From an uncultured Alphaproteobacteria bacterium (GTDB lineage Bacteria > Pseudomonadota > Alphaproteobacteria > RF32 > CAG-239), in assembly GCA_944393725.1 (NCBI GenBank), contig CALYBC010000009.1, positions 146,099 through 210,098 on the forward strand: a stretch of 64,000 nucleotides of DNA. The letters run 5' to 3'. The position numbers and the translations under genes were made by a program. The notes under the pieces are model-generated. The model was not told where the DNA came from. It saw only the letters and a list, made by a program, of their open reading frames with translations, and did no database searches. The stretch's first letter is position 1; the number at the start of each line of letters is the position of its first letter. Below, piece by piece: positions 29,731 to 51,578 of this stretch.

Positions 29731-29807
29731 CGGGACTTAGCTCAGCCTGGTAGAGCGCTTGCTTTGGGAGCAAGATGTCGTTGGTTCGAATCCAATAGTC
29801 CCGACCA
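29731..29807 (+). tRNA. tRNA-Pro (UGG)
   Basis: A 77-nt cloverleaf: acceptor CGGGACT pairs with AGTCCCG, D-arm with AGCTCAGCCTGGTAGAGC, anticodon loop TTTGGGA giving anticodon UGG, T-arm with GGTTCGAATCC, and an encoded CCA at 29805-29807. Confidence 0.97.
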
Positions 29808-41963: not shown

Positions 41964-42523
41964 TCAAGCATTTTTTAGTTTGGCAAATACCAATTTATCG
42001 TAAAATTTCCCATTGTTATAGATAGCTTTGCGCAGAGTACCTTCGAAAACATAATGATTGCGTTTGGCAACATTGACAGAGGGGATATTTTCTTTTTGCA
42101 TTGTAATTTCAATGCGGTTCATACCCAAAGAAAATGCGGCATTTTCAATTAATTTAACAGCACCGCTCATATATCCGCGGCCGTTATATTCTTCTGCAAG
42201 CCAATAGAGCCGATTTCGCCTTGGTAATTTTCGTAGTCAATGTTGTGAATATCTATTGAACCGATGGCTTTGCCGGTGGCTTTCAAAACAATAGAGTAGG
42301 CGTAATTTTCACCTTTTTGCCATTTGTCGGTAAACATATCGGTAGCGGAGTTACAATCCTGCAGAGAATTAGTTTTATCAACCCAAGAAATAAATTTTCG
42401 CAGAAAATTACGATTTTTATCTGTTTCCAGCCATAAATCTTCGTCGTATTGATAATTGTTACGAGCAACCAATTTAATCACATCATTTTCCAATGTTTCC
42501 GGCATTATAAAATTTTCCAACAT
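41964..42523 (-). pseudogene. GNAT N-acetyltransferase (RimJ/RimL-like), frameshifted
   Basis: Reading from ATG 42523 the first part ends after EIGSIGLQK, whereas in another frame the sequence continues YWLAEEYNGRGYMSGAV, the usual acetyl-CoA loop of RimJ/RimL-like proteins, and reads to 41964. Removing two bases near 42206-42211 joins both frames. The gene is therefore a recent pseudogene or contains a sequencing error. It is the last host gene before the dif-like site at 42659. Confidence 0.85.
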
Positions 42524-42658
42524 TTTGAATAATCTCCATTGTAAAAATATTGTAATTTTTGTCAATTATATAACAATATGTTGATTTTGCAAGAATATTT
42601 TTTTGCGCGAATTTTGTTGTCCTTATTGAGGGTAGTCATATTTTATATATAAATATAT

Positions 42659-42686
42659 TTGTCGCATAATATATATTATGTATACT
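42659..42686 (+). other. dif-like site, left prophage boundary (attL)
   Basis: A 28-bp site with 11-bp arms around the 6-bp centre TATATA (42670-42675). It matches E. coli dif at 20 of 28 positions, including the run CGCATAAT and TATATTATGT. Its right half, 42670-42684, is repeated at 50333-50347. Reading: XerC arm from the host, XerD arm from the element. The gap 42524-42788 contains this site, the promoter-side of the pseudogene and, from 42683, the split codons of the phage regulator. Confidence 0.85.
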
Positions 42687-42802
42687 TTGGCGTGACTGTA
42701 GCCTTTGGTATCGTTGGCTTAATGAGTATTATAACTTTGTTAATATTTGATTGTTATGTAAACTCAAAACATTATAAGGTTATCAAAAATGATAGTATAT
42801 AA
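42683..42802 (+). other. Detached 3' end of the phage HTH regulator gene
   Basis: From 42683 the sequence reads in frame with the HTH gene if 50345 is joined to 42683: 39 codons then TAA at 42800-42802. The peptide includes a hydrophobic stretch FGVTVAFGIVGLMSIITLL and ends VIKNDSI. In the integrated state it has no start of its own. The TAA overlaps the ATG of the next gene (42789), as expected of an intact two-gene operon. Confidence 0.75.
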
Positions 42803-43262
42803 CGATATTGAAGATTTGGCTAGAATAAAAAATGCTGTTTGTGATGAATTTTTTAATGTGAAAAAATCCATTGATATAGTACAAAAAAATCTTGATTTAC
42901 TTTATTTGTATACCTCAAAAAATGAACAAGATAAGCGTAAACAAAATCCTTATATTGTTAAGACTGTCATCAAACACATGGCTAATGGCATGAATAAACA
43001 TGATGCTATGATTTTAGCGGCTGAAGAATTGATGATTGACATTAAGCGCGTTGAAAGCGTTTATTGGCAACAAAACCGCTATATGTCGGCAATAAATTTA
43101 TTTGCCAAGCGTTATTTTTGTGAAAAACTAAAAAAAGCCGGATTTACAGCTAAAGAGATAGCCAACTTATTGGGTATAAGTGAAAATCATGTTTTTAAGT
43201 TAATGCGCTCTACAATAGATTTTTGGTTTCTAGATAATAAAAAAAATAAAGCCGGCAGTTAA
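42789..43262 (+). CDS. Phage regulatory protein with C-terminal HTH
   Basis: A 157-residue protein. The C-terminal part (about 110-140) has the sigma-region-4-like helix-turn-helix FTAKEIANLLGISENHVFKLM; the N-terminal half is helical, with many charged residues. AAGG lies upstream of the ATG. In the circular form of the element it follows the HTH regulator gene with a 14-base overlap; in the integrated form it lies next to attL, cut off from that gene's promoter. A likely activator or antirepressor of the late operon; only inference. Confidence 0.7.
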   Translation: MIVYNDIEDLARIKNAVCDEFFNVKKSIDIVQKNLDLLYLYTSKNEQDKRKQNPYIVKTVIKHMANGMNKHDAMILAAEELMIDIKRVESVYWQQNRYMSAINLFAKRYFCEKLKKAGFTAKEIANLLGISENHVFKLMRSTIDFWFLDNKKNKAGS

Positions 43263-43275
43263 CCGGCTTTTTTTA
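43248..43275. terminator. Terminator between converging phage operons
   Basis: AAAGCCGG CAGTTAA CCGGCTTT then TTTT; the loop contains the stop of the 42789 gene. It is placed to end both that gene and the leftward late operon. Confidence 0.85.
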
Positions 43276-43279
43276 GTGT

Positions 43280-43459
43280 CTAAAATAGACTTAGTTGTTT
43301 ATTTGTCTTTTTTTTATGTTTTTTAATCGGTTTCTTGGCCGTTTTTTTGGCCTTGTGGCGTTTTTTGCGTAAAATGGCCGCCCTTTCCTCATCTGAATCA
43401 TCTAAAGACGCCCAAAAAGCTTTTTTCCACCGTATAGCCTCTTTTTTCCAATCGACCAT
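43280..43459 (-). CDS. Small highly basic phage protein
   Basis: 59 residues; ATG 43459 is chosen over an in-frame start at 43471 because it directly follows the stop of the preceding small gene. The C-terminal half is almost all Lys/Arg/His (KKRHKAKKTAKKPIKKHKK), as in DNA-condensing or virion core proteins. It is the last gene of the late operon. Not recognised as a named family. Confidence 0.65.
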   Translation of the reverse strand: MVDWKKEAIRWKKAFWASLDDSDEERAAILRKKRHKAKKTAKKPIKKHKKKTNKQLSLF

Positions 43460-43460
43460 G

Positions 43461-43601
43461 CTAACCGCCAATCAGCGCGGTTAACACGCTCAAAATAGCC
43501 TCCGGTGCTGATAGCGTGCCGGCAAGAATACCGGCAACAGCTGTGGCAACACCTGCCCAAAAGCCTTTGTTTTTCAATTTGTTTAAGATTTGAACCAACA
43601 T
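43461..43601 (-). CDS. Small phage membrane protein (holin-like?)
   Basis: 46 residues, starting ATG at 43601 within the 3' end of the preceding gene, GAGGAG upstream. N-terminal basic part (MLVQILNKLKNKG) followed by one or two hydrophobic segments rich in Ala and Gly (VATAVAGILAGTLSA). Its small size, membrane helix and place near the lysin suggest a holin or a virion membrane protein. It is too short to appear on standard length cut-offs. Confidence 0.6.
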   Translation of the reverse strand: MLVQILNKLKNKGFWAGVATAVAGILAGTLSAPEAILSVLTALIGG

Positions 43602-43735
43602 TTATCTTGCTCCTCTCTGATGTCTGTTAACTCTTTTTCTATAAGCGCACAACGCTTATCAAATTTGCTATATAGCAACAAAACGGCTATTAAAGTCGGG
43701 CTATTTCCTAACAAATTGATAAGCAACTCTTGCAT
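43583..43735 (-). CDS. Small phage protein with N-terminal membrane helix
   Basis: 50 residues, starting at ATG 43735 (overlapping the previous stop as TAATG). One hydrophobic stretch (LLINLLGNSPTLIAVLLLY) then a charged helix (KRCALIEKELTDIREEQDK) and a CW pair. The layout, a membrane segment plus a coiled coil, recalls spanin- or holin-like lysis proteins. Overlaps the next gene by 19 bases. Function unknown. Confidence 0.6.
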   Translation of the reverse strand: MQELLINLLGNSPTLIAVLLLYSKFDKRCALIEKELTDIREEQDKCWFKS

Positions 43736-43914
43736 TATTTCGTACTCCGCCAAATCCAAAAGGCAGCAACACCGGCAGCGGCCATAATCGCCTTATCCCA
43801 CCATGAAAAAGACGGTGTGTTTTGGCTAACTACCGGCGTTTCGGTTTCTTTTTCATATACTATACCGGTTAAAACTCCGGCAAGTGCTGAAACTCCTATC
43901 CAAATAAGTGGCAT
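43735..43914 (-). CDS. Small phage membrane protein
   Basis: 59 residues from ATG 43914, preceded by AAAAGGGGG; an in-frame longer start at 43983 has no RBS. Two hydrophobic helices (PLIWIGVSALAGVLTGIVY and AIMAAAGVAAFWIW) with a polar hinge. Sits directly after the lysin gene in the late operon, so a holin or an internal membrane protein is plausible. Confidence 0.6.
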   Translation of the reverse strand: MPLIWIGVSALAGVLTGIVYEKETETPVVSQNTPSFSWWDKAIMAAAGVAAFWIWRSTK

Positions 43915-43925
43915 TATTCCCCCTT

Positions 43926-44408
43926 TTAAGCGTAAAATGTATGGTTTCCTATTGTTGCAACTTGTTCCATTTTTCCGGCCCAACTCGGAATTGTGGACAA
44001 TGAATCAAGAGCCAAATAATTGGTTGCTCCATTGGTGATATCTGGCAAAAATCCCTCATATGCAAGCAATGCAAGTTGTTTTGCTAGTGCAAAATAACTA
44101 TCACTTTCATCGACAGCTAACATTGGACCGTAATTCGGATCATCAGCGTTCCAAACGCTGAATTGGCTTTTTTTGGTACATACTTCTTTAGGTGTCGCAC
44201 CGTACCAACTGCCAGCCTTGACACGATTCATAATAACATTAATCACGGCTTGCATACCCTCTTTTCCCTCGCCTCTAGCCTCTCCCCATGCTGTGCGTGC
44301 CATATAATCAATTTGCTCGTCTTTATCTGTAAGTGCCATTTTTCCACCTCTAAAAATCAAATATCCGCCTAAAAGCGAAATTAAGGTTATGCCGACGGGG
44401 TTATTCAT
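43926..44408 (-). CDS. Cell wall hydrolase, SleB family
   Basis: 160 residues: a short N-terminal membrane helix (about 5-22, signal-anchor type), then a SleB-type catalytic domain with DYMARTAWGEARGEG (catalytic Glu of WGEARGEG), VINVIMNRVK and FSVWN. It hydrolyses glycan strands of peptidoglycan. In the phage late operon it can serve for host entry (virion-bound, via the membrane anchor) or lysis. Clear family call; the role in the virus is inferred. Confidence 0.85.
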   Translation of the reverse strand: MNNPVGITLISLLGGYLIFRGGKMALTDKDEQIDYMARTAWGEARGEGKEGMQAVINVIMNRVKAGSWYGATPKEVCTKKSQFSVWNADDPNYGPMLAVDESDSYFALAKQLALLAYEGFLPDITNGATNYLALDSLSTIPSWAGKMEQVATIGNHTFYA

Positions 44409-44745
44409 TGCTCAAACTTGCCTCTAACTCGTTAATCCTTGCGCGCCATTGTTGCCGCTGGCTGATTAAATCAGCATATTCTTCCGGAGTTGCTGCGCCC
44501 TCGGCAATTTTGATAACGGCATAATCTGAGGCCGCCAGCTTTGATTTTAACTCTGATATTTCTTCCATGTAGATGTTTTTTTGAGGCTTTTCCGGAGCAT
44601 ATCCGGATAAATACCAGAGGCCATTATATGCTTGTTCAACATCCTGCTCGGTCATACCGATTGATTTGTAGAATGGAATATTTGTACCTAAACCAACACT
44701 GCAAACTTTAGTTTCTTCATTTTCTACTTTAGCATATTTTTTCAT
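44401..44745 (-). CDS. Phage structural/assembly protein with C-terminal coiled coil
   Basis: 114 residues. The N-terminal half resembles small tail fibre-associated proteins (KVCSVGLGTN, EQAYNGLWYLSGYAPEKP); the C-terminal half is a helical segment (EISELKSKLAAS, RQQWRARINELEASL). Its place just after the probable spike proteins suggests a role in host attachment structures. It overlaps the lysin gene by 8 bases. Confidence 0.6.
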   Translation of the reverse strand: MKKYAKVENEETKVCSVGLGTNIPFYKSIGMTEQDVEQAYNGLWYLSGYAPEKPQKNIYMEEISELKSKLAASDYAVIKIAEGAATPEEYADLISQRQQWRARINELEASLSNE

Positions 44746-44749
44746 CTGT

Positions 44750-45049
44750 TTATTTCCCTAAACACGGACAAAAACTGGTAACTCCCGTATTAATTATCGT
44801 TCCCTTTGGTGCTGGAATCCAACCAGAAACATCCCCTTCTCCATTGCCAACGCCAATCATCATAGCACTTAAATTAGCTGGATATGTGATATTAGAAGTT
44901 GTAAGATTTCTGTTAGTATGTAAATAAATGTTTACCCAGCCATCGGTTGGTGCTGTAAACGGTTTTGTTCCCGATATAGCAGCTGAATAATCCGGCAAGC
45001 CATAATCAGGTTGCGTTGGATTATTTAAACTTGTTCCAAACTGTACCAT
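44750..45049 (-). CDS. Probable phage spike or fibre-tip protein
   Basis: 99 residues rich in Gly, Thr, Asn and Pro, with a beta-rich fibre-like sequence (KPFTAPTDGWVNIYLHT, WIPAPKGTIINTG), as in receptor-binding tips of phage fibres. The ATG overlaps the stop of the 189-residue gene (TAATG). The C terminus has a CPC motif. Recognised only by composition and place. Confidence 0.55.
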   Translation of the reverse strand: MVQFGTSLNNPTQPDYGLPDYSAAISGTKPFTAPTDGWVNIYLHTNRNLTTSNITYPANLSAMMIGVGNGEGDVSGWIPAPKGTIINTGVTSFCPCLGK

Positions 45050-45618
45050 TATGCAAAACTCCCCACAGCTACAGTTTTCGCCTCTGTGCCGTAAAGCACT
45101 AACGGCACACCAAGAGAATATTCAAAAGTACCTTGAGCTTGCAGCTGCAAACCGTCTGTGCCGGTACCGCCAATATAAACGATATCATCGCCGGTATTTT
45201 GAATAATAACTTTTTGTGCTGCCGGAATTTCTAAAATTCCGGTGTCATCAAAAGTAAATGTTTTTACGGAAAAGCTTGTATATTGCGCTGATGTGGTTTG
45301 CACCGTTCCGGTAACAGTTAACCGGCTGTCATCAAAATATCCAATACCTACCCCAACCGATAAAACAAGCGGAGTTTCGGAATCATTGAATATTTGAGCA
45401 TAAGGGATAATTGTATCAAACTTAATGCCTAGACCAGTTTCAAAAACAGTATCCATTTGATTGGTTGACCATGCAACCTTAAATTTTTGGTTAGCGGATA
45501 AACATCTGAAGTAGTTAAACGGATTGTTAAGCGTATATACACCATTTGCCGGAAGCTCAATAGTAAACTCACGGTATGAACTTTGTTGTCTGCCATTATT
45601 TATTGGTTGCCAATCCAT
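45049..45618 (-). CDS. Probable phage minor capsid/penton-like protein
   Basis: 189 residues almost without helix-formers: strands rich in Thr, Val, Phe and Gly throughout, including YREFTIELPANGVYTL and VIIQNTGDDIVYIGGTG. This is a typical jelly-roll or beta-sandwich composition and could be a penton or spike base. One Cys. It follows the small membrane proteins in the late operon. No named family. Confidence 0.55.
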   Translation of the reverse strand: MDWQPINNGRQQSSYREFTIELPANGVYTLNNPFNYFRCLSANQKFKVAWSTNQMDTVFETGLGIKFDTIIPYAQIFNDSETPLVLSVGVGIGYFDDSRLTVTGTVQTTSAQYTSFSVKTFTFDDTGILEIPAAQKVIIQNTGDDIVYIGGTGTDGLQLQAQGTFEYSLGVPLVLYGTEAKTVAVGSFA

Positions 45619-45619
45619 T

Positions 45620-45982
45620 TTATAAACCTTTCAAAATACGAGGTGCCATAACAATTGCCAAAATGCCGGCACCAACCATTAGTACCGGTTTGAGTTGCTG
45701 AATTATACCGGTTGTTTCTGAATATGCCGACTGATAACCGGCCGCCACTTGCTGAATTGATTGTCCGGCTAGATTGGAGTTTGCCGCGGTTGCCGTATTG
45801 GCCATGCTTTCCACACTTTCAAGAAAAGCTTGCATATCCTCGCCCCACATACCATTAACAGTAACATCACCGGTTGATTGAATATTACCGGTCGATAAAT
45901 CACCAATGCTTGATGATGTCGTTGTTGTCGTATTGGTTGTTGTGCTGCTTGAGCTTGATTTTGAACCGCCAAAAAGCCCCAT
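45620..45982 (-). CDS. Phage virion membrane protein with Ser/Thr-rich N terminus
   Basis: 120 residues: an N-terminal run of Ser and Thr (GSKSSSSSTTTNTTTTTSS), a helical middle region and a C-terminal membrane helix (PVLMVGAGILAIVMAPRIL). Resembles in layout the small inner-membrane proteins of PM2/PRD1-type virions. One base separates it from the 189-residue gene. Confidence 0.6.
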   Translation of the reverse strand: MGLFGGSKSSSSSTTTNTTTTTSSSIGDLSTGNIQSTGDVTVNGMWGEDMQAFLESVESMANTATAANSNLAGQSIQQVAAGYQSAYSETTGIIQQLKPVLMVGAGILAIVMAPRILKGL

Positions 45983-45985
45983 TTT

Positions 45986-46171
45986 TTACCTCTTAAACAT
46001 ACGCCAAATTAAAAAACCAATGCCGGCAAGGGCAAGCATTTTGACAAGCCCTATGCCGCCACCTGATGAATTAAAAATAGCACCGTTTTTTATCGAACCG
46101 CCGGTCGCTGCTGCTGATGACTGGCTTGATAAATCACCGCTAATATCTAATGGTATTGCACCTGATGCCAT
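45986..46171 (-). CDS. Small phage membrane protein, 61 residues
   Basis: A Gly/Ser-rich N terminus and a C-terminal membrane helix (VKMLALAGIGFLIWRMF) ending in basic residues. One of several single-helix proteins between the capsid gene and the penton-like gene; likely a virion membrane component. No family recognised. Confidence 0.65.
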   Translation of the reverse strand: MASGAIPLDISGDLSSQSSAAATGGSIKNGAIFNSSGGGIGLVKMLALAGIGFLIWRMFKR

Positions 46172-46178
46172 TTTTACC

Positions 46179-46451
46179 TCACATTAATTTTTTTACGCCT
46201 AAGCCTACCGCTAACAGACCAAGCGTTCCGCCGATAATCCACAAAATTGAATTGGTTGAAATTTCCAAATCGCCAATTTTGATAGTGTCGGCGGAATCTT
46301 GTCGCTGTTGTGCTTGGTTAAGGCCGGCAAGCTGCCCTTGCAAATAGGCAGTTTCCTCGGAATCAGCCGAAGAACCGTTAAAAGCATTATAAATATCTGC
46401 TGCCGATTTACCGGTTTCGGTTAATCCTGATAAAATTTCCGACCATTCCAT
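46179..46451 (-). CDS. Small phage membrane protein, 90 residues
   Basis: An acidic/polar helical N-terminal region (about 1-60, rich in Gln, Ala, Asp) and a C-terminal membrane helix (ILWIIGGTLGLLAVGLGV) ending in KKLM. It follows the capsid gene by 12 bases. Likely part of the internal virion membrane or its contact with the capsid. No family recognised. Confidence 0.65.
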   Translation of the reverse strand: MEWSEILSGLTETGKSAADIYNAFNGSSADSEETAYLQGQLAGLNQAQQRQDSADTIKIGDLEISTNSILWIIGGTLGLLAVGLGVKKLM

Positions 46452-46463
46452 TGGTTACCTCGC

Positions 46464-47399
46464 TTAAGCTGCTGTTGTCGGCAAAGTGTCCAATGCCAAC
46501 AAAGTGGTTGAGTTTACAAGCTTGCTAATTCTGTCCGGACAGTTATGAACTTTCAAAACCGGCATATCATAAGAGGTTGTCGGTGCTTGGCTGAAAGTTG
46601 TTCTAACTGATAATTCCGAAGTTACATCTTGGACTAACAAACCGGAGTTTGCTGTTCCGTCCATGTAGTTATGAATAAATGCTCCGGAAATTGTGCCGTA
46701 TCCTTCAAGATTATTCATTGCGTTATTAGTTGCAATGCTTATGTTTCTTGCAACATTCACATTGTTAACCAAGGTTTCTCCGCTTGAAATAGTACCGCCG
46801 CCAGGGTATGCAATCGCCAGCAAGAACAAATCTTTTGCGTTTTTGGGTAAGGTATTAACTTGTGATTGTCCAACGGCAGCAAAAGACTGAACATTGTTAT
46901 TGAATTGAATATAGGTGTCGTTCCAATCTGCCTCAACATTTTTGCGGATTGAATACAAATTTACATCGGTAATATCTGTTACTTCTGTTCCGGCAAAAAT
47001 CTGAACCACCAACGAGCTGATTTTTTTAGACGGGTCGGTGTTGCCAAGTTTACCGCAACGCCAAGCAAATTCATCACGCAAAACACCGGCTTGATAGAGC
47101 AAGCGGCCGAGGTTAAGCGAAAATACATTCACTAAGGTTGATTGCTGAACTCTGGTGCCAAGATAGCTATAAAGGTCAACAATTTGTGATAATTTTACAT
47201 CAACTGCATTCATTCCGTTAATCAAAACAACAACACGCTCAATTGATGATTTGCAGTTAGCCAAAGTTGCCGGTGCACCGTTGTTGGTAAATTCAATAAT
47301 CAAATCGCGAATAACATCATAAGTGTTTACATTGAACGGCGTCATTGAACCGGCCGTAATCGGTTTTGATTCTTCAAAGTTTCTGATAGGTGTCTGCAT
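46464..47399 (-). CDS. Candidate major capsid protein (double jelly-roll type)
   Basis: 311 residues, the largest structural gene in the element. No signal or membrane helix. Sequence is rich in Asn, Thr, Ser and Val, with alternating hydrophobic residues typical of jelly-roll strands through two similar-length halves. Length fits double-jelly-roll capsid proteins of PM2 or FLiP type (about 270-320). The packaging ATPase is the next large gene upstream and single-helix membrane proteins follow, the order expected of such viruses. RBS TAGGAG precedes the ATG. The family is inferred; no enzyme motif is visible. Confidence 0.7.
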   Translation of the reverse strand: MQTPIRNFEESKPITAGSMTPFNVNTYDVIRDLIIEFTNNGAPATLANCKSSIERVVVLINGMNAVDVKLSQIVDLYSYLGTRVQQSTLVNVFSLNLGRLLYQAGVLRDEFAWRCGKLGNTDPSKKISSLVVQIFAGTEVTDITDVNLYSIRKNVEADWNDTYIQFNNNVQSFAAVGQSQVNTLPKNAKDLFLLAIAYPGGGTISSGETLVNNVNVARNISIATNNAMNNLEGYGTISGAFIHNYMDGTANSGLLVQDVTSELSVRTTFSQAPTTSYDMPVLKVHNCPDRISKLVNSTTLLALDTLPTTAA

Positions 47400-47410
47400 T
47401 TGTCAAACTC

Positions 47411-47497
47411 CTATTTGCTGGTAAGTTTAGTTGAAATCCAGTTGTAAGCAAATACGCCTACAACAACAGCTGCAGCCATTTTAACCATGCTTTTCAT
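47411..47497 (-). CDS. 28-residue phage membrane peptide
   Basis: ATG 47497 follows TAAGGAG with good spacing; reads MKSMVKMAAAVVVGVFAYNW and eight more residues. One membrane helix with a basic start. It lies directly before the capsid gene and after the ATPase-MCP gap, so it is first in the structural operon. Tiny membrane peptides are typical of PM2-like virions. Confidence 0.6.
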   Translation of the reverse strand: MKSMVKMAAAVVVGVFAYNWISTKLTSK

Positions 47498-47556
47498 TGT
47501 GTTAGCTCCTTATGGTAAAGTTAAAAAAAATCTATACAGTAAGAGCCTAAACAAAA

Positions 47557-47623
47557 AATCGTGTAAATGTCAAAAATGCTAAGTATTTGATTTTACACGA
47601 TTGTTGTTCTATATACGTACGTA
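47557..47623 (-). promoter_or_regulatory. Probable control region of the structural operon
   Basis: An 11-bp inverted repeat (AATCGTGTAAA at 47557-47567, TTTACACGATT at 47592-47602) with a perfect minus-strand TTGACA at 47568-47573 in its loop; the -10 is poor, suggesting activator dependence. TACGTACGTA at 47614-47623 also occurs at the early promoter (49964). Could also act as terminator for the ATPase gene. Confidence 0.5.
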
Positions 47624-47630
47624 GAAAAAT

Positions 47631-48308
47631 TCATCTATGCACAAAAATTTTATTTCCGGACTTGTAAACATATTGAAAATTATCCAATCCGGCGAAAGTT
47701 TGCCGATATTCACGGCCTAAAATCTTAAGCCCAACATCAATATCAGCCGGCTCGCTATGCCTAAATAAATAAACTGCTGAACAGTTAGCACGAAAAACAT
47801 TGTCGATTAGGTGCATACGCTGAGATAGTCCGACAATGTGGATTCCGGTATGACGGCCACGACAACACAAGTTTTTAAATCCGTTTTTAGGATTTTTCAA
47901 ACTTGCTCCGGTCGGAAATGACAAATCAAGCTCATCAACAACAAGCGTAATGTGTGCCGCATGGCTAAAGCCAAATCCTGATTGAATATTCATCAACCAA
48001 TTTGAAATATCGCTTAGCTGCTGTTCTTCATTTCCGACCGCCGGAAAATAAACGAGTTTAAAACCGCGGCTAAATTTTAGCCTAATTTGCCGGCAAAGCT
48101 CCGGAAATGTGCAAATAACGCTGTAACCGTCTTTTTGCAATCTCCGGACATCATCGGCCAAAGGCTCGAAAAATATAACGCGGTTTAATCCTTTGATTAA
48201 TTCTCTGGCCTTGGTTGTTTTTCCGCAACCCGACGCCCCAAAAATCCCCACCCTTTGGGCTTGTCCGCTTTCTGCATAGCTCTCAATCTGATTTTTTCTT
48301 TTAGCCAT
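47631..48308 (-). CDS. Phage packaging ATPase (FtsK-HerA/A32-like)
   Basis: 225 residues with Walker A GASGCGKTT (about 25), Walker B HITLVVDELD (about 125) and a later Gln/Arg-containing sensor in GLSQRMH. No membrane helix, unlike filamentous-phage Zot proteins. The fold class and size fit the genome-packaging ATPases of double-jelly-roll viruses (PM2 P9, PRD1 P9). ATG 48308 (AAAAGGT upstream) is preferred over ATG 48344, which overlaps the previous gene by more. It lies just before the capsid gene across a 231-bp control region. Confidence 0.8.
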   Translation of the reverse strand: MAKRKNQIESYAESGQAQRVGIFGASGCGKTTKARELIKGLNRVIFFEPLADDVRRLQKDGYSVICTFPELCRQIRLKFSRGFKLVYFPAVGNEEQQLSDISNWLMNIQSGFGFSHAAHITLVVDELDLSFPTGASLKNPKNGFKNLCCRGRHTGIHIVGLSQRMHLIDNVFRANCSAVYLFRHSEPADIDVGLKILGREYRQTFAGLDNFQYVYKSGNKIFVHR

Positions 48309-48733
48309 ATTTTTACCTTTTCTGCCAATGAAATGCCTGTCCAATTCATAACGATTGCATTAGTTTCGCAAGCCGCAAAAATGCTGATAAGTGCAAAATC
48401 ATGCAAAAGTTGTGTCTTTCTATCAATCAAAAACCGCAAAAAACGGTATCTTTGAGCCATTTCATAAACTTTGCCGGCTGCCAATTGTTGGCCTTGTGAG
48501 CGTAAGGCCTCGAAAGTGTCAAGGCTAGTTTCCGGACTTTTTAAGAAAATCAAAAATTCATTAAATGCCGCCTCAAATTCACCGCGCGAATAATAACGCT
48601 CATCAATCGTCGTCATCGTCGGTGAGCCAATCGGCAAGCCATCCGCGGCCGCTTGGCTGTCTTGGTTGAACTCCGGAGTTTCCGGCAAGTTGTCCGTTTG
48701 TCCGTCCGTTAACTGTATTTCTTCCTCTGTCAT
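48197..48733 (-). CDS. Phage protein of unknown function
   Basis: 178 residues. Acidic, low-complexity N terminus (about 1-45), then a helical part with one moderately hydrophobic segment (LLHDFALISIFAACETNAIV) and a basic C terminus. ATG 48733 follows AAAGGAG well. It overlaps the zinc-ribbon gene by 131 bases and the ATPase gene by 112, each in another frame. Possibly an accessory to packaging. Not recognised. Confidence 0.65.
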   Translation of the reverse strand: MTEEEIQLTDGQTDNLPETPEFNQDSQAAADGLPIGSPTMTTIDERYYSRGEFEAAFNEFLIFLKSPETSLDTFEALRSQGQQLAAGKVYEMAQRYRFLRFLIDRKTQLLHDFALISIFAACETNAIVMNWTGISLAEKVKIWLKEKIRLRAMQKADKPKGWGFLGRRVAEKQPRPEN

Positions 48734-48998
48734 TTTCAATCACTCCTTTAGCTTCTTGTTTTTCAAAAGTTTTTTCGTTTGTATTGGCGGCTTTAATTGG
48801 CAAAATATGCAAATTAGCCTCGACAATATCTTTGCCGGCCGCTAATTTTGCCAGCCACTCACGCGACTTTTTGCCGTTAAAATGTGTTGCACAACCTCGG
48901 TCGCAGAAAATATAAAGCTTGCGGTTTTTATTTACTCGCACCTCTTGCCCCTCTTCCCCACAAACCGGACATCTTGTAAGACCTATTACCTCAGGCAT
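48603..48998 (-). CDS. Phage zinc-ribbon protein
   Basis: 131 residues with an N-terminal zinc ribbon: CPVCGEEG then CDRGC (CxxC...CxxxC), about residues 10-38, followed by a Gly/Asn/Arg-rich linker and a very acidic tail (DDDDD). Zinc ribbon plus acidic tail suggests a DNA- or polymerase-binding accessory. GAGG precedes the ATG. The region coding for its tail is also used by the next gene. Confidence 0.65.
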   Translation of the reverse strand: MPEVIGLTRCPVCGEEGQEVRVNKNRKLYIFCDRGCATHFNGKKSREWLAKLAAGKDIVEANLHILPIKAANTNEKTFEKQEAKGVIENDRGRNTVNGRTNGQLAGNSGVQPRQPSGRGWLADWLTDDDDD

Positions 48999-49016
48999 TT
49001 TTTCCTCACTTTCCCC

Positions 49017-49826
49017 TTAAATTACTTCCTCATTTGGATAATGTTGATTGTAATCAACTACTTGTGCGACAATGCCAAGGCTGGCCAAATAGTCGACAAC
49101 CTCGGAGGCTCGCACCGCCTCAATAAGACTGTATTTTGATTTTTTTCTTAAACCGTACTGATTACCGACCTTAAAAAACTCTAAATCGGCCGCTACATCC
49201 TTAAAATTGGCCTTTATACCCTCAACCAAGGATTTGTCGTCATTGGCCGCTTGAGTTTCAACCTGCACTTTCCTTGCCGATTCTTGATTTGGCATTGACC
49301 GACCGGCGGCAACGTCCGCCGGTGCTATATGATGAATTGGATTTTTTTTATCAGGGGTGCACTCGATTGCACTCCCGTTATTTATAAGTTTTAAATTTAA
49401 ATTTAAATCTTTATTAAGGGTGCTATCAGTTGCACTCCCGATTGCTTTAAATTGCACTCCCGATTGCTTTAAATTGCACTCCCGATTTTCTGACTGGGAG
49501 TGCACTCGAGTGCACTCCCGCCCGTTTTGGATAGCTCCGCCAAGCCCACCAAAACATACTCGTAAAATTGACGAGTAACGCCTATTGTTGCGTATTATAC
49601 GCTCAATGTATCCCATTTTTTCTAATCTATCGACTAAATTTATACATTGACGGCGTGATAAACAGCTAAATTCGGCTAAACTGTCATATCCGGTTTTTGA
49701 TTCTCCGTTTTCATCGGATAACCAAATTAAAACACCAAGCAATATTTTTTCGCTTGATGATAGTTTTTTGCTTGTTAGCCACTCTATAGGAATTGCTGAA
49801 AATTGATATTTGATTTTATTAGACAT
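49017..49826 (-). CDS. Winged-helix replication initiator (Rep)
   Basis: 269 residues. The N-terminal domain (about 10-90) is a winged helix: SSSEKILLGVLIWLSD, LAEFSCLSRRQCINLVDRLEKMGYIER, the type seen in phage replisome organisers and plasmid Rep proteins. The middle region is polar and, at DNA level, holds an iteron cluster. The C-terminal part (about 200-269) is a second, smaller domain. No rolling-circle His-hydrophobic-His or Tyr motif is seen, so theta-type initiation is more likely than rolling circle. Its promoter has a TATAAT at 49866-49871 (minus strand) inside nested palindromes. Confidence 0.75.
   Translation of the reverse strand: MSNKIKYQFSAIPIEWLTSKKLSSSEKILLGVLIWLSDENGESKTGYDSLAEFSCLSRRQCINLVDRLEKMGYIERIIRNNRRYSSILRVCFGGLGGAIQNGRECTRVHSQSENRECNLKQSGVQFKAIGSATDSTLNKDLNLNLKLINNGSAIECTPDKKNPIHHIAPADVAAGRSMPNQESARKVQVETQAANDDKSLVEGIKANFKDVAADLEFFKVGNQYGLRKKSKYSLIEAVRASEVVDYLASLGIVAQVVDYNQHYPNEEVI
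49357..49520. other. Iterons and AT-rich element within rep (candidate origin)
   Basis: TTGCACTCCCG occurs at 49367, 49430, 49452 and 49474; the last three are exactly 22 bp apart. A perfect 24-bp palindrome is centred on CTCGAG at 49496-49519 (each arm GGGAGTGCACTC), and a degenerate one at about 49356-49377. The AT-rich stretch 49388-49416 (TTTAAATTTAAATTTAAAT) lies beside them as a possible unwinding element. All lie inside the rep coding sequence, as in some iteron origins. Confidence 0.75.
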
Positions 49827-49844
49827 GGCGGTGTCTTCCTATTA

Positions 49845-49973
49845 AGGTTATATGATTGTCTAACCATTATAAACATTTTATCGGTTAGATATAAATATAA
49901 CCTATACATTAAAAGGTTAAAAAATAGTTGTCAAATATAAAAATATATGTTATGTATAAGTCCTACGTACGTA
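49845..49973. promoter_or_regulatory. Divergent phage promoter-operator region
   Basis: Two concentric inverted repeats share the centre 49874: AGGTTATAT (49845) with ATATAACCT (49895), and TCTAACC (49859) with GGTTAGA (49883). They cover the minus-strand -10 TATAAT of rep. Rightward, TTGTCA (49928-49933), 17 bases, TATGTA (49951) give a promoter for the HTH gene. TACGTACGTA at 49964-49973 covers its start. Arrangement of a repressor-controlled switch. Confidence 0.7.
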
Positions 49974-49991
49974 CATACATAGAGGTTAAAA

Positions 49992-50381
49992 ATGAAAAAC
50001 TTTACTGATTATGCTGAAAAAGCTATTAGCCGTTTTGGGTTAAGTGGATACAATAACCTTGCTCGTGAAATTGGTGTAACTAAATGTGTCATGTCTCAAT
50101 TTAGACATAATAAAGCTACACCATCAGACGAAACTTTTTTAAAAATTGTTGAGCTTGCCGGTATGCCCAAAGAAGAAGCTTTAATTGACCTCAATTTGTG
50201 GCGTTCTAAAGATAAACCCGAACTGCAAAAAGTATGGCAACGCCTCTCAAAAATGATTGGTTGCTATGCTGCTCCGTTGTTGTTTTTGCTTAATATTCCT
50301 TTTGCTGCGCCAATCTTGCTATCGTCTTTTGTTATATATTATGTATATTTAAAAGCAAGGAAAATTGACGCTGAGGCGTAA
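49992..50381 (+). CDS. Phage HTH regulator, C terminus replaced by host DNA
   Basis: 129 residues as integrated. The N-terminal helix-turn-helix (about 20-55: NLAREIGVTKCVMSQFRHNKA) is Cro/CI-like, as in DUF3693-type phage proteins. A hydrophobic region follows (about 80-115: GCYAAPLLFLLNIPFAAPILL...). Codons up to 50345 belong to the phage; the last about 11 (LKARKIDAEA) are host. In the excised circle it reads on into 42683-42802, giving 157 residues with another membrane segment. AGAGG precedes the ATG. Probable repressor of rep and the late operon, possibly membrane-bound. Confidence 0.8.
   Translation: MKNFTDYAEKAISRFGLSGYNNLAREIGVTKCVMSQFRHNKATPSDETFLKIVELAGMPKEEALIDLNLWRSKDKPELQKVWQRLSKMIGCYAAPLLFLLNIPFAAPILLSSFVIYYVYLKARKIDAEA
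50322..50349 (+). other. Right prophage boundary (attR)
   Basis: Aligned with the dif-like site at 42659, this copy keeps the centre TATATA (50333-50338) and the XerD-side TTATGTATA (50339-50347) but has a degenerate XerC arm. It lies inside the HTH gene. Confidence 0.75.
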
Positions 50382-50412
50382 TCGGTATAATTTTACATTA
50401 TTTCTTTTGTAG

Positions 50413-51330
50413 CTATCGTCCTGTAGATTTGTTCTTGTTTATCATTATCATTGCTGTATGCTGATTGTCTATCAGGTACATTCCTGAATTTTTGCGGAAA
50501 GCAATGTAATAGCCTAACATCTCATTCATTTCACTTTCTGACGCATTGCGCGCCAACATTTTATCTTTTACATTTTTCCATGACAAATCTATATAATTAA
50601 GAGATTCTTTGTTTAGATAGCTCTCACGGGATTTTATAATTCCGCTTATTATTCCTTCTTCGCTCGGGTTTTCGACCTTGTCAGTATCATAAAAATTTTC
50701 AAAAATGCGATTGTAGATGCTTACCTTATCTGCTATGCCTTCTTTATGCATTTTGGCCACGACCGCCGGTAATATCTCGTAGGCTTTGTCGTGGGTTGCC
50801 ATGGTTACCGGAAAGCCTACTCCGAAATTTTTAATTTGTTCTTCTCTTCTGGAAAACATTGAAACTTCACTTATATATCTGTGTACGCCTAATGCTGTGC
50901 ATTCTATTCTGTAGCCTGCATCTTTTACCTTTAGCAATGTTCCCATTTTCCAATCATTGGGATTGGATAAAATACTATCTATTTGTATGTTTAGTTTATT
51001 GTTAATACAATCATTTACAAGCTTTTCTCGAGCCCAAGACATGTCTGCTTTGCTGATAAACGGATATTCAACCGGATTTTCGCGCAATAACTTATCGGCG
51101 TACGGCAATAATATTCTTATGTCATCACCGCCAAAACGGACAGGCTCCGGACTTATATTTTGTGAACATTTTATTGCCGCCGTCGTTTTGCCGGCTCCGG
51201 GTTGGCCGGTGAGTAACACAAATGTCGGTTTATCGCTGATTTTTTTACCTTCTAAAAACATCGGCGCGACAACCTGGTCATACCATATTTCGCGTTGCTT
51301 ATCATTTAGAACATAAATATTGTCACTCAT
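50413..51330 (-). CDS. Zeta toxin family kinase
   Basis: 305 residues with Walker A GQPGAGKTT (about 41-49) and downstream GGDDIR, matching zeta/PezT-type kinases that phosphorylate UDP-N-acetylglucosamine and block wall synthesis. ATG overlaps the stop of the small helical gene (ATGA). It ends only 32 bases from the HTH gene. The operon also contains queH, a peptidase and a phosphatase, an unusual setting for a toxin. It may be a housekeeping zeta-like kinase instead. Confidence 0.75.
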   Translation of the reverse strand: MSDNIYVLNDKQREIWYDQVVAPMFLEGKKISDKPTFVLLTGQPGAGKTTAAIKCSQNISPEPVRFGGDDIRILLPYADKLLRENPVEYPFISKADMSWAREKLVNDCINNKLNIQIDSILSNPNDWKMGTLLKVKDAGYRIECTALGVHRYISEVSMFSRREEQIKNFGVGFPVTMATHDKAYEILPAVVAKMHKEGIADKVSIYNRIFENFYDTDKVENPSEEGIISGIIKSRESYLNKESLNYIDLSWKNVKDKMLARNASESEMNEMLGYYIAFRKNSGMYLIDNQHTAMIMINKNKSTGR

Positions 51331-51578
51331 TGCCGCCCCTCTTTTTGCTGTAAGAATTTTTGTAGTAACGGTAAATATATGCTTTTTACCTTGTTTATAA
51401 GTTCTATTTCTGACAAATACCTGATGTCTTTTTTAATTTGTTGCATCTTACGCCGACATTCTTCTTTTTCATTTTCATCATTTAACATAATAATCGAATA
51501 TTCGCGATATAGTGATAGCAATACAAAGTTTGCTTCCGCCGTGTTTGATATTTCTTTTTCGATTATATTTATATCCAT
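51327..51578 (-). CDS. Small helical protein, candidate antitoxin
   Basis: 83 residues, nearly all helical and highly charged (EKEECRRKMQQIKKDIRYL). ATG 51578 with GGAAAG upstream is preferred over an ATG at 51593 without an RBS. It directly precedes and overlaps the zeta-type kinase, the place of an epsilon antitoxin, and has the right size for a three-helix bundle. No sequence family is recognised. Confidence 0.6.
   Translation of the reverse strand: MDINIIEKEISNTAEANFVLLSLYREYSIIMLNDENEKEECRRKMQQIKKDIRYLSEIELINKVKSIYLPLLQKFLQQKEGRQ

Follow-up and report, generated by a model that had tools for sequence, protein, structure and literature searches.

A 64,000-nucleotide stretch of DNA from an uncultured Alphaproteobacteria bacterium (CAG-239; GenBank assembly GCA_944393725.1, contig CALYBC010000009.1, positions 146,099 to 210,098), here called the window, was analyzed for an integrated phage whose attachment site (att) had been placed inside a phage regulator gene by an earlier reading of the letters alone (the sequence-only reading). 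The window contains, at positions 42683 to 50345, a provirus of 7,663 bp that is bounded by two dif-like sites and carries a set of phage-type genes, among them one for a helix-turn-helix (HTH) protein that runs into the right-hand site (Table 1). The two sites share the repeat TATATATTATGTATA, which that reading had reported as 15 bp at 42670 and 50333; exact copies were found at 42670 to 42684 and 50333 to 50347 (18 bp at 94%). Right and left att differ at five positions over 24 bp, every one of them in the first arm.

Attachment site of the provirus

On its own, an AT-rich repeat of 15 bp would mean little. That the att repeat is real is indicated by an empty site in a relative, by dif-like sites at loci of the same genus, by a change in GC skew, and by the same geometry in five further proviruses, which are described below. 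In genome G064 of the same genus (locus L028), the host flanks are continuous and hold a single intact dif, and the joined flanks of the window align to it in one piece (1,640 columns, 86%). This empty site rules out a chance repeat as the origin of the att pair. Around the flanking zeta-toxin-like gene, 19 loci of the genus were compared, the window's own among them, and 12 showed a dif-like site with at most five mismatches. This kinase gene (50413 to 51330; Pfam expect value [E] 7e-26) flanks the dif-like site in the window and was matched in 19 of 35 genus genomes, in 16 of them with an E value below 1e-80. Furthermore, the GC skew switches sign at about 42 to 44 kb of the window, and such a change at the site is expected at a chromosome terminus. 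The provirus thus appears to occupy the dif site, and with it the terminus, of its host chromosome. A transfer RNA (tRNA) or another known RNA at the attachment site was considered and rejected, as the one tRNA of the window lies at 29731 and no Rfam match was obtained over 42000 to 51500.

The sequence-only reading had proposed to look for both products of excision. An empty host site is present in the relative G064; the junction of the excised circle was seen neither among the 35 genus genomes nor in the window's own assembly, where a 120-base junction probe matched only as two separate halves. No recombinase was found among the 18 proteins of the element that were scanned (20 were scanned, two of them from outside the element). 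The window's own assembly (G000) holds one gene of the Phage_integrase family, and 31 of the 35 genus genomes hold two or more; gaps in the assembly are a likely cause of this single gene.

Regulator gene across the junction

When 50345 is joined to 42683, as in an excised circle, the HTH frame stays open for 39 more codons up to a TAA at 42800 to 42802, giving a protein of 157 amino acids (aa) whose gene overlaps the ATG at 42789 by 14 bp. The gene that starts there encodes a second predicted regulator and is the next one after the HTH gene in the circle. Both the 157-residue form and the overlap had been predicted by the sequence-only reading and were reproduced by this joining, and the integrated form of 129 residues with 11 host codons was likewise confirmed from the sequence. 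In this element, the phage attachment site (attP) lies inside the open reading frame (ORF) of a regulator whose C terminus is altered on integration. Since the att core is inside the HTH gene, integration would exchange the phage-coded tail for a short host-coded one; it would also cut the second predicted regulator gene off the promoter that it shares with the HTH gene. The HTH protein is presumably a repressor.

Table 1. Features of the provirus and its attachment sites (positions in the window)
Feature	Position	Strand	Remarks
Provirus	42683..50345	.	att pair and empty site in G064
Left att	42661..42684	+	complete dif-like site GTCGCATAATATATATTATGTATA; identical site stands alone in G064
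Right att	50324..50347	+	dif-like with divergent first arm; within the 3' part of the HTH gene
HTH regulator gene, integrated form	49992..50381	+	129 aa; PHROG 638
Host-side end of the integrated HTH gene	50346..50381	+	11 codons (YLKARKIDAEA) and stop
Phage-coded HTH tail in the circle	42683..42802	+	39 codons and stop; hydrophobic, then basic end
Second predicted regulator	42789..43262	+	157 aa; weak C-terminal HTH matches below Pfam cut-offs
HTH promoter	49916..49956	+	block GTTAAAAAATAGTTGTCAA 49916-49934; TTGTCA 49928-49933, 17 bases, TATGTA 49951-49956
Palindrome TACGTACGTA	49964..49973	.	below the HTH promoter; possible operator
Second TACGTACGTA	47614..47623	.	215 bp upstream of the capsid-candidate start
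Replication-initiation-like protein	49017..49826	-	divergent from the HTH gene
Packaging-ATPase-like protein	47631..48344	-	PHROG 2666 (E 1e-18)
Capsid candidate	46464..47399	-	sub-threshold match to PM2 coat domain P2_N (E 0.0064, 16.6 bits vs 25)
Cell wall hydrolase	43926..44408	-	Hydrolase_2, SleB type (E 2e-18)

The same layout in other proviruses

Att pairs were read for eight proviruses, the one in the window and those at loci L016, L017, L018, L020, L021, L070 and L071, and the HTH frame crosses the att core in six of the eight. The six crossing elements come from three bacterial families (the window, L016, L017 and L018 from one, L070 and L071 from one each), and in L016 and L018, among others, the site is read in the orientation opposite to that of the window. 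Their circle and integrated forms have 157/129, 153/133, 152/124, 160/139, 160/124 and 184/178 aa; the start of the L071 gene was set by its HTH domain, and a longer GTG start would give 214/208. From the circle stop to the start of the next gene, which encodes 135 to 192 aa, the distances are -14, -7, +14, -25, -8 and +29 bp. For L070, the two sites agree imperfectly (TATACRTTATGCGRC) and were paired by eye. Eight further loci were obtained with an HTH profile. Among these, L062, L064, L066 and L068, and less clearly L065, have an HTH gene whose end falls on a dif-like core, with L064 being the same provirus as L070 and L068 the same as L071; L063 allowed no decision, and L069 is an unconvincing homologue. 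By inspection, the same phage-type genes lie near the HTH gene in L062, L064, L065 and L068. A scan of genome contigs gave one locus, L009, and no relatives were confirmed when IMG/VR was searched with the capsid candidate, the HTH protein, an HTH alignment and an ATPase alignment.

The length of the open frames was compared with dinucleotide shuffles of 120 bases in 3,000 rounds. Phage-side frames are open over 178 codons in total against a shuffled mean of 71.8, a value reached by none of the 3,000 shuffles (Fisher combined p 0.003), whereas host-side frames are open over 39 codons, fewer than the shuffled mean of 78.8, a length that 2,806 of 3,000 shuffles reach. The phage-side frame is thus kept open beyond chance, and the host-side frame is not.

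This result bears on the possibility that the layout arose by drift only, with an attP that long lay just after the HTH gene, a gene that ran into it, and a swap of tails that serves no function. Phage PM2 has its HTH gene gp c (which we take to be P16), a dif-like site and gp a in this order on the same strand; it differs from the window element in that the site lies 75 bases past the gp c stop and that gp c has neither a membrane segment nor a tail. In L067, the site follows the HTH stop by 24 bp, and host tails are evidently tolerated, all of which speaks for drift. The difference between phage-side and host-side frames does not, and neither do the circle lengths, five of six being 152 to 160 aa in spite of several frames and both dif orientations, so that we consider drift alone improbable.

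Homologues and exchanged tails

The layout was followed further in 129 listed homologues (120 of 162 found, plus 9 new ones among 120 listed of 191). A dif-core-like translation occurs in the C-terminal part of 113 of them, compared with a mean of 30.6 and a maximum of 44 for shuffled C termini (200 rounds). Some of the 16 homologues without the motif show near variants by eye (YVLCDN, FVMDR), and one, P0116, is truncated. Different tails can follow one and the same variable region, as in P0001, which ends in LKARKIDAEA, and P0003, whose ending YYVY is the one expected from the host flank at the empty site of G064. Further pairs of this kind are P0010/P0021, P0056/P0025, P0094/P0098, P0097/P0086 and P0119/P0103. 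Conversely, P0094, P0111 and P0109, which represent two variable-region types, have the ending YIMRQIFIM in common. Such swaps among homologues are predicted if tails are supplied by the host.

The size of the contigs was compared for tails of at least 20 residues and shorter ones. Contigs of 7.0 to 8.5 kb carry 9 of 34 long tails versus 4 of 78 shorter ones (p 0.0025), and contigs above 10 kb carry 10 of 34 versus 38 of 78 (p 0.065). These counts were made after P0026 and P0029 had been moved from the long tails and P0096, which has no recognizable core, had been dropped; the first-motif rule before this correction gave 9 of 37 versus 4 of 76 (p 0.009) and 12 of 37 versus 36 of 76 (p 0.16), respectively. 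As a guess, the contigs of 7.0 to 8.5 kb with long tails, among them those of P0010, P0059, P0065, P0067, P0068, P0082, P0089 and P0129, may be free circles. A general rule that the long form marks a free phage was ruled out by the long tails on contigs above 10 kb.

Two side observations concern the build of these proteins. One variable region can follow different HTH domains (GCALLVSILNSQNIEKNQ, for example, is preceded by several N termini), so that domains seem to have been reshuffled around a conserved EEALIDLNLWRSK stretch. P0109, from a contig of 115,549 bases, has three consecutive dif-core-like translations at its C terminus (GYIMRQ, DIMRL, YIMRQ), as if dif-like sites were nested or repeated there.

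Tail character and membrane-like segment

Fifteen phage-side or small-contig tails were tested for amphipathic order against shuffles. Tails of L017, L018, P0065, P0067 and P0068 are amphipathic beyond shuffles (p 0.002 to 0.036), that of L070 nearly so (p 0.058), and those of L016, L071, P0059, P0082 and P0010 are basic with amphipathicity that is not significant (p 0.11 to 0.84). The tails of the window, P0089 and P0129 are strongly hydrophobic, and P0092 belongs to neither class. For long tails on contigs above 10 kb, one of eight tested (12 listed) was amphipathic (P0112, p 0.014). Of 128 listed homologues, 92 have a hydrophobic stretch before the core, and the HTH part is hydrophobic in 3 of 129. 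An AlphaFold2 model of the long form P0067 (38 sequences) is confident for the HTH part, with block means of about 90 to 94 up to residue 70; a helix at 76 to 101 runs into the hydrophobic stretch, the predicted local distance difference test score (pLDDT) is below 50 at 107 to 124, and a low-confidence helix at 123 to 156 spans the dif-coded part and the tail. At its end, the hydrophobic stretch is often signal-peptide-like (P0041, P0059, P0094 and others; NTANADP, CFADN, SYAANH), and a cut at that point would set the tail free in the periplasm.

In another reading, the tail itself does little. Here, the open frame would couple the translation of the second regulator to that of the HTH gene, and integration would act only by disconnecting the second gene. 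In keeping with this, the circle stop lies at most 29 bp from the next gene's start in all six crossing elements and overlaps it in four, tail sequences differ strongly among elements, and L020 and L021, with no HTH gene near their ends, still have a gene of 149 or 142 aa next to one att. However, the tails fall into few characters, either basic amphipathic (the five significant cases above) or strongly hydrophobic (the window, P0089, P0129), and coupling needs no 18 to 39 codons past the core. We regard this explanation as somewhat unlikely.

The tail could also be a degradation signal, by analogy with mycobacteriophage BPs, for which attP in the repressor gene, an inactive free form of 136 aa with an ssrA-like tag and an active integrated form of 103 aa are described (PMC4557955). 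The long form would then be unstable and the integrated form stable and repressing. As in BPs, attP lies inside a regulator gene of the window element and the integrated form is the shorter one, so that the change in length has the same direction, and the last residues of many free tails are small or non-polar (e.g., LNYA, CQYA, HSPA, NDSI). No common ssrA-like ending is visible by eye across the tails, however, and the tail, coming after a likely membrane segment, may lie outside the cytoplasm. We judge a degradation signal rather unlikely. BPs further differs in its own integrase and in a tag that was demonstrated (PMC4557955), whereas no recombinase was found among the scanned element proteins and no phage-encoded integrase beside the regulator gene of the window element.

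Control region

Block GTTAAAAAATAGTTGTCAA of the HTH promoter was kept in four proviruses, being identical in the window, L016 and L018 and having three changes in L017; a generic promoter consensus scan did not list this promoter. A TAYGTA(A)YGTA palindrome stands just below the block in the window, L017 and L018, and L016 has TTACGTAACGTTA at this place, which is outside the pattern. Upstream of the capsid start, the pattern recurs at 215 bp in the window, 214 bp in L016 and about 196 bp in L018; it is not found there in L017. Over the whole element, the palindrome count exceeds all 200 shuffles in the window only, and it was reached by 27 of 200 shuffles for L016, 25 of 200 for L017 and 5 of 200 for L018. 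The palindromes would fit a repressor that acts on its own promoter and on the capsid operon.

Gene content and kinship of the phage

By its gene content, the provirus is likely PM2-like (Vinavirales). Clade A of the Vinavirales (proposed Mestraviridae) is described as having alphaproteobacterial hosts, a SleB-type hydrolase, a P16-like regulator and the clade-specific regulator TR_Z1 in the P15 locus (PMC9502842). The gene set here appears to fit this clade as far as it is described there, and from the gene order the second regulator gene may correspond to TR_Z1. The capsid candidates of L020 and L021 are 36 to 38% identical to that of the window. In the phage collection searched, no match to the capsid candidate was found, and the ATPase gave one weak match, in Vibrio phage PG21. 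A dif scan of PG21 (24 bp, up to seven mismatches) found none; what looks by eye like a degenerate site, lying between its HTH gene and the following one, was not counted. Inside the replication-like gene of the window, repeats of type GTGCACTC (families D1 and D2) occupy 49347 to 49533 and could be iterons.

Comparison with known systems

In the filamentous phage phiRSS0, a dif repeat lies at the 3' end of ORF13, whose product has 156 aa before and 130 aa after integration (PMC3816273; PMC4471427), and the author proposed in 2013 that its two forms act differently (PMC3816273). In XacF1, also filamentous, attP is within the possible regulator gene ORF12 (PMC4076744). According to the available excerpts of these papers, both phages resemble the window element: their dif attP falls within an HTH regulator gene or at its 3' end, host XerCD integrates them, as is predicted for the window element, and no integrase is reported. 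They differ in being filamentous single-stranded DNA phages (Inoviridae) with unrelated structural genes, whereas the window element is likely a tailless double-stranded DNA phage. phiRSS0 was compared by its published description only.

XacF1 ORF12 encodes an HTH, a hydrophobic stretch, an in-frame dif core (YIMR) and a further tail, with an overlap of 4 bp with the next gene; ORF11 of the filamentous phage VCY encodes an HTH, an in-frame dif core (YILC) and a further tail overlapping the next gene. PHROG 638 is the best PHROG for both as well as for the regulators of the window (E 4e-13), L070 (3e-20), P0067 (3e-15), P0089 and P0094. The window element thus has a PHROG 638 regulator, an in-frame dif core near its 3' end and a phage-coded tail, as in the phiRSS0/XacF1 type. 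A profile of the HTH family matched VCY ORF11 over 68 columns (E 3e-10) and XacF1 ORF12 over 31 columns (E 2e-6). For PM2 gp c and PG21, PHROG 4441 ranked best and 638 second, and the match of gp c to the window regulator family is weak (E 4e-4, probability 34%).

For the tailless phages Jorvik and NO16, integration at dif-like sites is described, with host XerCD proposed to carry it out and no integrase predicted for Jorvik (PMC10589892, PMC9966536); Jorvik differs in that a non-coding region separates attP from its HTH gene gp1 (PMC10589892). The dif-like site of PM2 was noted in PMC9966536. The available excerpts of PMC10589892, PMC9966536, PMC11630473 and PMC9719478 do not describe an attP inside a regulator gene for tailless phages, and those of PMC9502842 call the integration mechanism of most clade A prophages unclear and mention neither dif nor a split regulator. 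phiRs551 was rejected as a precedent because it relies on its own resolvase (PMC5608472).

Xer integration with attP inside a regulator gene has already been published for filamentous phages, which narrows the novelty. The principle is less new than the sequence-only reading had stated, since this logic had already been put forward in 2013 for a filamentous phage. Its statement that no such switch was known in a tailless dif-integrating phage agrees with the open-access literature searched, in which no earlier report was found; Xer recombination within a regulator gene as such is described in the excerpts on phiRSS0 and XacF1. Similarly, its view that this element had evolved the logic of the mycobacteriophages, among which Giles and other clusters reportedly also have attP in a repressor gene, stands with respect to the layout. 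A shared cassette fits better than a separate invention, as the layout is common to a dif-integrating phage group and PHROG 638 recurs in the filamentous regulators.

Proposed mechanism and significance

The att pair, the empty site of a relative, both reading frames, the gene order of the circle and the recurrence in five proviruses and many homologues can all be read directly from the DNA. The anatomy given by the sequence-only reading, i.e., the core in the regulator gene, the swap of tails and the second gene cut off from a conserved promoter, was right, and the observation extends to more elements than that reading knew. We think it probable that integration at the dif-like attP inside the regulator gene swaps the tail, severs the second gene and in this way switches between lytic and lysogenic state. 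The host Xer recombinases are predicted to perform the crossing-over. In the free form, an HTH protein of about 152 to 160 residues (184 in one relative), which has a membrane-like segment and whose last helix is basic or hydrophobic, would be translated together with the second regulator; in the integrated form, the same protein would carry an arbitrary host tail. Because the integrated protein must work with any host tail, the repressing (lysogenic) activity should be tail-independent. The phage tail would then be of use in the free state, where it would most likely weaken repression or relocate it, and the second regulator may promote lytic genes in that state. From the layout we infer control of lysogeny and immunity, Xer dependence and membrane insertion.

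Several findings weigh against such a switch. L020 and L021 have no HTH frame across att and no such gene among ORFs of at least 60 aa near their ends; a replication-like gene adjoins one att and the 149- or 142-aa gene the other, and as they integrate at dif-like pairs all the same, the tail switch is not needed for integration. The site of L067 lies outside the HTH gene. Taken singly, the frame tests are weak (p 0.016 for the window to 0.44 for L071), and the tail of the window shows no visible sequence similarity to those of the other five crossing elements. The membrane-like segment is present in both forms, so the tail alone does not decide membrane attachment. Among the listed homologues, there is no long form of the window's own type, long tails also occur on contigs above 10 kb, and short forms, namely P0006, P0014, P0033, P0102 and P0128, occur on contigs of 7.0 to 8.5 kb (four by the motif rule, plus P0033, a motif miss on 7,455 bp). 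Finally, no circle junction was seen, the probe for it giving only one match of 26 bases among the 35 genus genomes, in G059.

More tentatively, and with less than even confidence, we propose that one cassette, consisting of HTH, membrane segment, dif core, exchangeable tail and coupled second gene, is common to Vinavirales and Inoviridae, i.e., to two realms, and reads the integration state. Host Xer recombination would rewrite the last residues of the repressor at the membrane and cut the operon, so that chromosome-dimer resolution would set the choice between lysis and lysogeny.

Control of lysogeny in tailless temperate phages is hardly known, and the regulator switch proposed here is a concrete, testable model that comprises a dif-like attP in a regulator gene, free and integrated forms of the protein, and an operon cut by integration. 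Long and short forms of the same types are already contained in public protein sets. The layout also addresses the gap that PMC9502842, in its available excerpts, left for the integration of most clade A prophages, and it links tailless phages with filamentous ones, which belong to another realm, by a single regulator family that has a recombination site embedded in it.

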